This document shows, one piece after another, positions 5,152-8,285 of a DNA stretch of 38,543 nt. The stretch comes from a virus, in the IMG/VR virus record IMGVR_UViG_3300032291_000551, positions 1 to 38,543 of that record. One strand, written 5' to 3'. The translations under genes and the position numbers were made by a program. Below the pieces are notes generated by a model. It saw only the letters and a program-made list of their open reading frames with translations, was not told the origin of the DNA and searched no databases. The first letter of the stretch is position 1. Each line of letters starts with the position of its first letter.

Positions 5152-5544
5152 TTATCTTACATTGTGTTCTAGTATGCCGTCACAGTCTTGGCACTGGTTG
5201 AATATCTTAGGAGTCAAGATGTGGCACCATTGGCACTCTACCTCGCGTGAACGCTGACGCTCATCCTCTAACTCCCATAGTTCCTCGTATACTCCACCGT
5301 CATGAAGCATGACGACTGGTTCTTTGTACTCACCGTCTCTACCTGTCCAGTCATGTCCGCTGATGTCCTCGATTGGGCGCAACCAGTTACGCTTGTACTG
5401 CATGTTGCCCTCATCAACGAGTTGATGGGCAACTACAGAGTCACGGGCTTCTTTGGTTTCCTCGCAGTTGAGACATACTGTGTCGAGCATCATGCAGTCG
5501 TAGCATTGTGTGGTAACGCTGATGCCTTGTGTGTATTCTGTCAT
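5152..5544 (-). CDS. Cys-rich protein with two zinc-knuckle-like clusters
   Basis: A 130-aa protein, the first gene of the leftward arm. It has two metal-binding-like clusters: CYDC plus CLNC at about residues 14-27, and CQWC plus CQDC at about residues 104-120. They are joined by an acidic region rich in Glu, Asp and Trp. AAAAGGATAAGAC precedes the ATG. Placement next to the divergent control region suggests a very early protein, perhaps a regulator or host-takeover factor (inference). No family is recognised. Confidence 0.7.
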   Translation of the reverse strand: MTEYTQGISVTTQCYDCMMLDTVCLNCEETKEARDSVVAHQLVDEGNMQYKRNWLRPIEDISGHDWTGRDGEYKEPVVMLHDGGVYEELWELEDERQRSREVECQWCHILTPKIFNQCQDCDGILEHNVR

Positions 5545-5591
5545 TGTCTTATCCTTTTCTTAGTAGTAATTCAACAGCACATACTGTCGGG

Positions 5592-5965
5592 TAACCGCGA
5601 CATCCCGCTGTCACTCTTGCCCTGTCTGGCGAAAAGCCAGACGTTTAGGGCGACAGTCGGCTGATGCCGACTTGACAGCGCGGTGTAAGGTTAAGCACGC
5701 TTGCGAGCAGCCGTTAAGCCGAGCCAGAGCGAGGTAGGCTGCGAGTGTAGGCTTGAGCAATATTGGCGATAGCCAGCGAAAGCCGTGGCGTGCGTCCGAC
5801 TGTGTGTGATGTTAGGTGAGCGTATTGCGCGGAGGGGCTGTGCACCGTAGCGCTTGGAGCGAACACAACCCGCTTAGACAGACAGGCATGAGGCTATGCC
5901 GAATGGCTGGCACGCTTTGGCTAAGCGGAACATTAGAACCCTAATGCTGCCAAGGCATTAGTTCA
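5592..5965 (+). ncRNA. Candidate large structured non-coding RNA
   Basis: This region has no gene, is visibly richer in GC than the flanking genes, and is full of nested perfect inverted repeats. CGCTGTCA (5606-5613) pairs with TGACAGCG (5673-5680). It encloses GCCCT-GTCTGGC/GCCAGAC-AGGGC (5619-5651, loop GAAAA) and AGTCGGC/GCCGACT (5655-5672, loop TGAT), which make a three-way junction. TAACC/GGTTA (5592-5596, 5689-5693) can close it. Further helices are GCAGCC/GGCTGC (5707-5742), TGGC-GATA-GCCA (5764-5775), CCGCTTAG/CTAAGCGG (5870-5928) around GGCAT/ATGCC, and CTAATGC/GCATTAG (5941-5961). The loops GAAAA and GCGAAAGC favour the plus strand, but the strand and the exact ends are uncertain. 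Confidence 0.45.
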
Positions 5966-6214
5966 TAGACGGACAGTCCGAGTATATTCATTTAGTTATA
6001 CTGTCTGTATCAGACTGGCTCCCAGTCTGCAGGCAGATAGTACACCGTCAGACAACAGTCAGTATATACTCCTGTCTGTCCTATAGTAGTTCTGTCTATA
6101 GTCTATGACCCCCAGTCTTTTAACTAGCAGCAATATTATATACTGTATCTCTACAAACAAATATTTCTGTATATAGTTACAGGGGGGTAGATACAGTCTG
6201 ACCAGCACTTTTAT

Positions 6215-6286
6215 AAATAGTTCTGTAGAAATAGTTCGTTTAGGTACTTTGAACGGATTAATACTATATAGAGAGTAAAATAGTTC
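6215..6286 (+). repeat. Three AAATAGTTC direct repeats
   Basis: The nonamer AAATAGTTC occurs at 6215-6223, 6229-6237 and 6278-6286, upstream of the terminase gene. A related TAGTTCTGT is near 6087. These could be binding sites for a phage regulator or part of phage-specific late promoters. Confidence 0.55.
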
Positions 6287-6308
6287 AGAACTCTTTTATT
6301 AGAGTTCT
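6287..6308. other. Hairpin upstream of terminase
   Basis: AGAACTCT (6287-6294) and AGAGTTCT (6301-6308) form a perfect 8-bp inverted repeat with loop TTTATT. It starts at the end of the third AAATAGTTC repeat and lies about 70 bases before the terminase start. It could be a leader stem or an operator. Confidence 0.5.
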
Positions 6309-6380
6309 TCACTCTGTTACAGAATACTGTACAAACAACTATCTGTAGGGCGGGGGGACTCTGCCACAAGGAGGATGAAC

Positions 6381-8285
6381 GTGGCTACACCAGCGCACAA
6401 GGGATTCAAAAAGGGCGGGGAACACCACCTCGCCAAGGGGGTCGCCCAGGCTAAAGCCGATGTACTCGACAGGGTACGTCAAGGGGTAAGTGTCCAAGCC
6501 GCTATGGTTGCGGCGGGTAAAAAACCAGACACCGTTCGTCAGTGGATGAACCGAGACCCCGAGTTTGCCCGTAACTTGGAAGAAGCCAAGGAAGAGGGAA
6601 GCAAGCAATCCTTTACCGCCATGGGCGTTGAGAAGGAATCTATCCCATTTGCTGATTTCTCTAAAATGTTTTTTGACCAGACGGTCTTTCCCCATCATCA
6701 GGACTGGGTAGACCTACTGGAGGGTAGGGAACCTTCGTGGCTCCACCCTAATATGATTTATGAGCCAGGTGAAGGGAACCGCCTGCTTATCAATGTGCCT
6801 CCTGAGCACGCTAAATCCACCGTGGTTACGGTGAACTATCCGACTTACCGCATCGCCCTCAATCCCAACATCCGCATCATCGTGGTATCAAAGACATTGA
6901 ATAAGGCACGCGAGTTCGTATACGCTATCAAGCAACGATTGTCTCATCCCCGCTGGCTCAAGTTACAGACCGCATACGGTCCTGAGGGCGGATGGAAAGA
7001 AGACGCAGATACTTGGCGTACCGATACTGTCTATCTTGGCGGCGATGCGCGTAACTCTTCAGAAAAAGACCCAACGCTTCAGGCACTGGGTATGGGTGGT
7101 CAGATTTACGGCGCCCGTGCTGACCTGATTATTCTTGACGACTGTATCACTACCGCTAACGCCCATGAGTGGGAACAGCAAATGAACTGGCTACAGAAGG
7201 AAGTTATTACTCGTTTGGGTAAGAACGGTAAACTTCTAGTAGTAGGGACTCGAATTGCGGCAAACGACCTTTACAAAGAACTTCGTAATCCTAAGCACTG
7301 GTCTGGCGGTAAGACACCGTTTACCTATATGGGTATGCCTGCGGTTCTTGAATATGCTGAGAAACCCGAAGACTGGGAAACCCTATGGGCTGAGTCGGAT
7401 GTTCCGTGGGATGGTGATTCGGATACTCCGAAAGAAAATGGATTCTATCCTAAGTGGGACGGACCAGCGTTATTCAAGCGCAGAAGTGAAGTTACGCCTT
7501 CAACATGGGCACTTGTCTACCAACAAGAAGACATCCAAGAAGACTCAATCTTCCCGCCAATCCTTGTACAAGGAGCAACCAATGGGATGCGCAAAAGAGG
7601 TCCACTACGGGCAGGGGCAGTGGGACACCCACCGCAAGTAGAAGGTCACACTGTTATTGGCTTTGACCCTGCTATGGCAGGTAACGCTGCATTTGTTGTG
7701 TGTACCTACAACAGAGCAGATGGACGCATTTATGTGTTGGACTGCATTAACATGGAAGAACCAACACCACAGAAGATTCGGGCGACAATTGAAGAACTTG
7801 TTACTAGGTACAGACCACAAGAGTTCCGAGTTGAAATCAACGCCCACCAAAAAGCCTACTCACTTGATGACGACTTACGAAACTGGCTTGCTGCATACGG
7901 CGTACGCCTTGACGCACACTTCACTGGGAAAAACAAATGGGACACTTCGTTTGGTGTTGCATCAATGTCTAACCTCTTTGGCACTGTCCGTGAAGACAAG
8001 TTTCAAAAGAACAACATATTAGAACTACCTTCATCTGAAGGTTCTGAAGGTATCAAAGCCTTGACTCAGCAACTATTAACATGGAAGCCAGAGACTAGGG
8101 GTAAGACAGATACCGTCATGGCTTTATGGTTTGCTGTGATTCGCATACGCGAACTAATGCAAATCAGTAGCCGTACTTCGCAGTACGCAACTAACCGCTG
8201 GGCTACTAGAGCGCAGATGGACCAACGAGTAGCAGTAAACCTCGATGAGATGTTTGCTGAACAATGGCAAGAAAACTTTGGATAA
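6381..8285 (+). CDS. Terminase large subunit with N-terminal HTH
   Basis: A 634-aa protein. GTG 6381 is chosen because AAGGAGG (6368-6374) ends six bases before it, while the ATG at 6375 touches the ribosome site. Residues of about 22-70 (VLDRVRQGVSVQAAMVAAG, DTVRQWMNRDPEFA) read as an HTH like that of small terminase subunits. The ATPase follows: a deviant Walker A VPPEHAKST (about 139-147), Walker B ADLIILDDC (about 246-254) and a VVGTRI coupling motif. The C-terminal nuclease has GFDPAMAG (about 426), RVEINAH and a late TDTVMALWFA. It cuts and packages DNA into the procapsid. No separate small terminase gene is seen nearby. Confidence 0.93.
   Translation: MATPAHKGFKKGGEHHLAKGVAQAKADVLDRVRQGVSVQAAMVAAGKKPDTVRQWMNRDPEFARNLEEAKEEGSKQSFTAMGVEKESIPFADFSKMFFDQTVFPHHQDWVDLLEGREPSWLHPNMIYEPGEGNRLLINVPPEHAKSTVVTVNYPTYRIALNPNIRIIVVSKTLNKAREFVYAIKQRLSHPRWLKLQTAYGPEGGWKEDADTWRTDTVYLGGDARNSSEKDPTLQALGMGGQIYGARADLIILDDCITTANAHEWEQQMNWLQKEVITRLGKNGKLLVVGTRIAANDLYKELRNPKHWSGGKTPFTYMGMPAVLEYAEKPEDWETLWAESDVPWDGDSDTPKENGFYPKWDGPALFKRRSEVTPSTWALVYQQEDIQEDSIFPPILVQGATNGMRKRGPLRAGAVGHPPQVEGHTVIGFDPAMAGNAAFVVCTYNRADGRIYVLDCINMEEPTPQKIRATIEELVTRYRPQEFRVEINAHQKAYSLDDDLRNWLAAYGVRLDAHFTGKNKWDTSFGVASMSNLFGTVREDKFQKNNILELPSSEGSEGIKALTQQLLTWKPETRGKTDTVMALWFAVIRIRELMQISSRTSQYATNRWATRAQMDQRVAVNLDEMFAEQWQENFG

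Follow-up and report, generated by a model that had tools for sequence, protein, structure and literature searches.

Which molecule, if any, is encoded between a leftward 130-aa gene and the rightward large terminase gene (terL) of a 38.5-kb virus record, here called the window (the whole 38,543 nucleotides analyzed), and what might it do for the phage? An earlier note, made from the letters of the window, had pointed to dense inverted repeats at 5585-5965 and proposed a large structured RNA. Compensatory changes in relatives and an excess of folding stability back that proposal, and we conclude that the stretch at about 5572-5965 is an RNA gene, non-coding and elaborately folded into several domains, ~390 nt long in its window form.

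A probable multi-domain RNA gene upstream of terL

The features of the locus are collected in Table 1. Nearly all of the inverted repeats listed earlier are used in the minimum-energy fold. That is, the repeat CGCTGTCA/TGACAGCG pairs as 5606-5613/5673-5680; the helix described as 5+7 bp is predicted as TTGCCCT (5617-5623/5647-5653) plus GTCTGGC (5624-5630/5636-5642) with the loop GAAAA; and the 7-bp helix is AGTCGGC/GCCGACT (5655-5661/5666-5672). The three-way junction read from these repeats thus has its helices in the prediction and, in addition, the backing of covariation in relatives. TAACC/GGTTA (5592-5596/5689-5693), GCAGCC/GGCTGC (5707-5712/5737-5742), TGGC/GCCA (5764-5775), CCGCTTAG/CTAAGCGG (5870-5877/5921-5928) and the 3′ hairpin TAATGC/GCATTA (5942-5948/5954-5960) are likewise part of the predicted fold, the exception being TGTG/CACA (5835-5871), which goes unused while another small domain folds there. 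Overlooked before was an outer helix, in which 5574-5576, 5578-5584 and 5586-5591 are predicted to pair with 5795-5800, 5802-5808 and 5810-5812; with this closing helix, the RNA would begin at about 5572 and end at 5931-5965. In the predicted fold, three domains are followed by the 3′ hairpin.

Table 1. Features of the pre-terL locus, in window coordinates
Feature	Position	Strand	Evidence or remark
Divergent 130-aa cysteine-rich gene	5152..5544	-	Start codon ~28 nt from RNA 5′ end
Conserved RNA body, window subfamily W	5572..5931	+	Alignment with L133, L134, L141, L142
Domain 1, closed by P0 (5574-5591 with 5795-5812)	5574..5812	+	MFE of 5574-5965; consensus fold, five relatives
5′ three-way-junction arm: TAACC/GGTTA, P1 5600-5604/5682-5686, P2 5606-5613/5673-5680	5592..5693	+	Covariation
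Two-part junction helix, apical pentaloop GAAAA (GAAUA in several relatives)	5617..5653	+	Covarying pairs
Third junction helix AGTCGGC/GCCGACT, then family motif TTGAC	5655..5672	+	Covarying pairs
Domain 1 second arm: GCACGCT/GGCGTGC; GCAGCC/GGCTGC; GGCTT/AAGCC; TGGC/GCCA	5695..5793	+	MFE fold
Domain 2 hairpin	5816..5866	+	Matched changes in relatives
Domain 3, CCGCTTAG/CTAAGCGG	5870..5928	+	MFE fold; conserved in 4/5 W relatives
3′ hairpin (loop motif TGCCAAGGC), where the RNA probably ends	5936..5964	+	Motif recurrence in A and W forms
AT-rich control region between RNA and terL, outside the RNA	5966..6374	.	Conserved in relatives with and without RNA
terL, large terminase, fixed downstream landmark	6375..8285	+	phrog_38 (E 8e-70), phrog_4044, phrog_1482

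The shuffling comparison proposed earlier gave a z-score of -4.08 for the plus strand, with 0/100 shuffles folding as well, and a weaker excess (z -2.17) for the minus strand of the same stretch. A repeat with 50 shuffles returned -4.65 and -1.74, respectively, and the whole gap (5545-6374) reached -7.5. A translated gene conserved over the same bases had been named as what would speak against an RNA; there is none. The RNA body holds no long ORF, and close relatives carry 1-nt indels in the helix-2 bulge, which excludes a reading frame there.

As for the neighbors, the cysteine-rich 130-aa gene is without a Pfam or PHROG match. The N-terminal segment of TerL matches the small-terminase families phrog_4044 and phrog_1482, which suggests a fused or relocated DNA-recognition domain. 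Within the AT-rich region lies a near-palindrome (GTTCG...TTTGAACGG, 6234-6260, ~120 nt before terL) that nearly all relatives retain and of which the cultured phages E7 and F5, introduced below, have a similar version; it is a probable operator or promoter. A hairpin at 6287-6308 (AGAACTC/GAGTTCT) resembles a terminator on the minus strand, and in relatives its arms have changed in step (GTAAG/CTTAC, GGAAG/CTTCC). A scan for promoters and terminators turned up no convincing plus-strand promoter in the short spacer (~28 nt) that separates the RNA from the divergent start codon; downstream of the RNA, it found no plus-strand T-run terminator.

Base pairing is maintained by matched changes in relatives

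Searching viral contigs with terL yielded 80 loci, most of which contain a GC-rich, stably folding stretch within the same gap. Nearly all of these loci retain the AT-rich 5966-6374, and 5572-5947 usually cannot be aligned. Compensatory changes were evident when four of them (L002, L016, L021 and L048) were compared with the window. Further members were found by sequence patterns, one for the shared helix and one for the window junction; wherever a match carried the family motif and its sequence also included terL, it lay on the terL strand, 374-1059 nt upstream of that gene. Eight pattern matches (L095, L102-L104, L114, L115, L117 and L118) were dropped since they shared a different, unrelated sequence context.

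The family comprises the window form W (~390 nt) and a longer form A of about 400-610 nt. W similarity begins at CAACAGCACATAC (5572) and stops at GGCTAAGCGGAA (~5931), both flanks diverging in L133, L134, L141 and L142. The two forms are linked by L111: P1 (ATACTCC...GGAGTAT in A), P2 (GTCA...TGAC) and the AATC...GATTTGAC helix are common, and the inserted arms differ. A motif, CCAT(T/C)GCCA(A/G)GGC, recurs at the 3′ end of A and W forms, though it is less conserved within W. Our model R1 recovered nothing beyond its five training members when applied to the first 83 sources and is therefore narrow; A is tied to W via the motifs and L111, not via R1.

The check for compensatory change raised by the earlier note came out clearly, with pairing kept by matched changes above controls. 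In the W junction (11 sequences), 97.2% of cells are paired and 8 of the 29 pairs have changed on both sides, in 20 such cells; none of 500 shuffles reached the observed value, and slid partners gave at most 2 pairs. An example is P1, whose sequences are unrelated across W sub-types but which is still paired in 8/9 sequences tested; in the exception, L016, the helix-walking script halted at a T.T mismatch in P2, and AATGC/GCATT is visible beyond it. Similarly, pairing holds in 91% of cells across the A form (14 sequences), where 41 pairs covary, as against maxima of 28 in 100 shuffles and 15 when slid. Many of the relatives are similar, so these counts are not of independent events.

Individual helices illustrate the same point. 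In the two-part junction helix, GTCTGGC-GCCAGAC becomes GTCTGCC-GGCAGAC, and the third junction helix occurs as A(G)TCGGC, ATTGGC, ATCGCC or ATCGCG. Within the W subfamily, domains 1 and 2 have likewise changed in a matched way: in the second arm of domain 1, GAGCAGCC/GGCTGC is replaced by GAGTAGCC/GGCTAC in L134 and L141, and in domain 2, GCGC/GCGC by GCGT/ACGC in L134, L141 and L142, while L133 has at this place an unrelated yet self-complementary GTAATCT...AGATTAC hairpin. The base pairing of the RNA is under selection. Separately, an additional shared module rich in GC, AACAGCAGACGCTTTG...GCGTAGCGTGCAG, comes after the W-type RNA in four loci (L048, L133, L134 and L141) and looks like a further structured RNA arranged in tandem.

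The plus strand is favored

The plus strand, already preferred in the earlier note, is backed by a strand-symmetric mismatch test and by folding excess. A column-wise count of G.U against A.C in the alignments showed no strand preference but is limited by alignment quality and conditioning, and we therefore used single interruptions inside Watson-Crick helices that are predicted by both strands without G.U. In three non-hairpin groups, G.U outnumbered A.C by 10:3, 7:2 and 12:3 (total 29:8) and G.A outnumbered C.U by 20:1, 8:1 and 14:4 (total 42:6), with the caveats that the purine skew of the plus strand explains part of this asymmetry and that the sequences are related; the coding-DNA control from the window gave 8:8 and 8:7. 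In addition, the plus strand is the more stable in 16/16 members and has the better z-score in 12/16 (mean -6.0 versus -4.7), and unpaired positions are purine-rich on it. Given those two caveats, we stop short of certainty and consider it very probable that the structured RNA is the plus strand, read rightward toward terL.

The RNA is accessory and exchanged between phages

Similarity of the RNA does not follow that of terL. In L002, L001 and L003, terL DNA is 93-95% identical to the window, yet alignable RNA covers 26%, 0% and 0% of the window's RNA, respectively. Conversely, L134, L141, L142 and L133, whose terL is 68-80% identical (L134 and L142 being alignable in short pieces only) and whose AT-rich flanks are 65-70% identical or unalignable, carry the window's RNA at 82-93% identity over 94-99% of its length. 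From this mismatch and the sharp similarity edges at about 5572 and 5931, it follows that the locus changes by recombinational replacement, not simply by fast mutation.

Of the upstream regions, 72 span 1000 nt or more; of these, 34 contain the window RNA family by motif, 7 a giant hairpin and 31 neither. Some of these 31 fold far beyond chance (z -6.9 in L022, -4.6 in L051 and -4.3 in L049; 12 shuffles each), so that other structured RNAs may fill the site in some relatives. The RNA is thus accessory, being exchanged between phages and absent in some relatives.

The giant-hairpin class (~850 nt) deserves mention in its own right. In L018, L026, L028, L032, L040, L058 and L070, the same pre-terL site is filled by a near-continuous hairpin of ~820-1070 nt, with minimum free energies of about -430 to -540 kcal/mol and z-scores of about -17 to -30 on the plus strand. 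A genuine leftward gene of 128-145 aa, showing third-codon-position bias, has the 5′ arm as its antisense; covariation is seen at 100 of the 327 pairs, where 49.6 are expected and shuffles reach at most 63. A coding gene and an RNA fold constrained over the same bases are an unusual combination.

Comparison with known RNAs

A likeness to GOLLD and ROOL, suggested in the earlier note, holds as a loose analogy, in that the RNA is large, many-branched, phage-borne and accessory; the proposed Rfam check (GOLLD, ROOL, HEARO, OLE) found no family match. At gathering score, cmscan of the window and related loci returned no GOLLD, ROOL, OLE or HEARO, focused lenient scans gave nothing or weak unrelated matches, none credible, and phi29 pRNA was absent from the Rfam matches. 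BLASTN of the gap and of one relative's RNA against public phages had no match. A pattern scan of bacterial genomes hit four scattered sequences without the family flanks, which we judged to be chance, and R1 found nothing in 297 genomes, a sample of one actinobacterial class without a positive control. By the defining tests, then, the RNA is neither ROOL, GOLLD, OLE, HEARO nor pRNA, and judged against Rfam families it appears to represent an undescribed family.

ROOL, GOLLD and OLE form homo-oligomeric RNA-only complexes (cage or dimer), and ROOL and GOLLD are abundant stand-alone transcripts. Like ROOL, the window RNA is large, many-branched, non-coding, borne by phages or prophages and dispensable. 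ROOL and GOLLD often lie near tRNA islands, and ROOL is dispensable in at least one strain (PMC12286853). In contrast, the window RNA precedes terL in a 38.5-kb window with no tRNA, and its alleles are replaced wholesale. GOLLD, a large phage RNA from lake samples, similarly combines conserved and variable parts, but its members are often >800 nt, have a conserved 3′ region and lie near tRNAs (PMC12286853), as compared with ~390-610 nt here. The pRNA of phi29-type phages is a structured RNA with a three-way junction whose fold is kept despite sequence divergence, much as seen here; however, the window phage has an ordinary TerL, and relatives without the RNA still package.

Possible roles of the RNA

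With middling confidence, we favor a stand-alone, accessory, horizontally exchanged phage RNA that would act in trans, its transcription and function being our inference. The RNA would be made as a separate transcript during infection, fold into a stable scaffold and bind RNA or protein in trans, a mode of action also proposed for ROOL and GOLLD. Phages would swap it by recombination for other alleles or other structured RNAs at the pre-terL exchange site, and such swapping suggests that what the RNA targets, or how selective it is, differs from host to host or among competing phages. The lack of plus-strand promoter and terminator signals in the scan above tells somewhat against this reading.

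The fixed position beside terL could also fit a role in cis. A rightward leader of the late (terL) operon, such as a processive antiterminator like HK022 put or a nut-like site, would account for the plus strand, the constant placement upstream of late genes and the GNRNA-type pentaloop of the window and many relatives, whose GAAAA/GAAUA recalls lambda boxB. The pentaloop is not universal, though (UUAG in L131; other loops in L034 and L073), the distance to terL ranges over the 374-1059 nt given above, and the family is replaceable, much larger than put or nut and without an established boxA. Above all, between the RNA and terL lies a conserved control region that phages lacking the RNA retain as well, and we consider a cis leader unlikely. 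A regulator acting as antisense or decoy to the leftward early transcript, with allele replacement providing an incompatibility-like specificity as in plasmid copy control, seems to us slightly less likely still. With the divergent start codon so close, the locus is probably traversed by leftward transcription; the start of the early mRNA has to lie within the locus or to its right, so the leader of this mRNA would be complementary to the plus-strand RNA. Allele swapping and the antisense arm of the giant-hairpin class fit as well, but structure is selected mainly on one strand, and known copy-control RNAs are far smaller.

Two further readings deny the plus-strand RNA itself. That the structured molecule is instead transcribed leftward, forming a long 5′ leader on the early-operon mRNA, would suit the divergent gene geometry and the fact that the minus strand also beats shuffles (see the mean above), but the mismatch test, the purine-rich loops and the 12 members with better plus-strand z-scores make this improbable. 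We give still less credence to an element acting as DNA (replication origin, packaging site or cruciform), with matched changes arising by template switching at quasi-palindromes. The locus adjoins the terminase, and double changes outnumber G.U intermediates, as such an element would have it; against this, the excess of G.U over A.C and of G.A over C.U is strand-specific, related viable phages lack the element, and a long-range helix around a branched domain is atypical of cruciforms. The strand asymmetry in particular makes a role as DNA alone unlikely.

Returning to the trans-acting RNA, we also entertain, as a rather doubtful extension, that the pre-terL site is a dedicated exchange locus at which whole RNA alleles are swapped for allele-specific competition, immunity or counter-defence. 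If true, this would be an RNA-based specificity locus of a kind not known in phages.

Host range and implications

The nearest cultured relatives of the window phage are the Planktophila phages LanE43AprE7 and AprF5 (E7 and F5; OX376640/1), with terL 63% identical. Their hosts are 'Ca. Planktophila' of the order Nanopelagicales (PMC10202952), and by inference from them the host of the window phage is probably a freshwater actinobacterium; the RNA family is carried by freshwater phages, probably actinophages. No copy of the family was found by motif upstream of terL in E7 and F5, which indicates that the RNA is dispensable for the basic life cycle. Among small leftward genes some 900-1400 nt ahead of terL, both phages (L082 and L083) do have recurrent GC-rich hairpins, CTAGTGCCCCC...GGGGGCGG, which lie between the genes and may represent a repeated small RNA or a terminator.

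ROOL and GOLLD form striking cages whose function is, to our knowledge, not known. The family described here is frequent in abundant lake phages, its many alleles are exchangeable, and even close relatives differ in whether they have it, which makes the family a comparative handle on the purpose of large phage RNAs. Laboratory experiments may become feasible, since 'Ca. Planktophila' has already served to culture two phages belonging to this broader group (PMC10202952).
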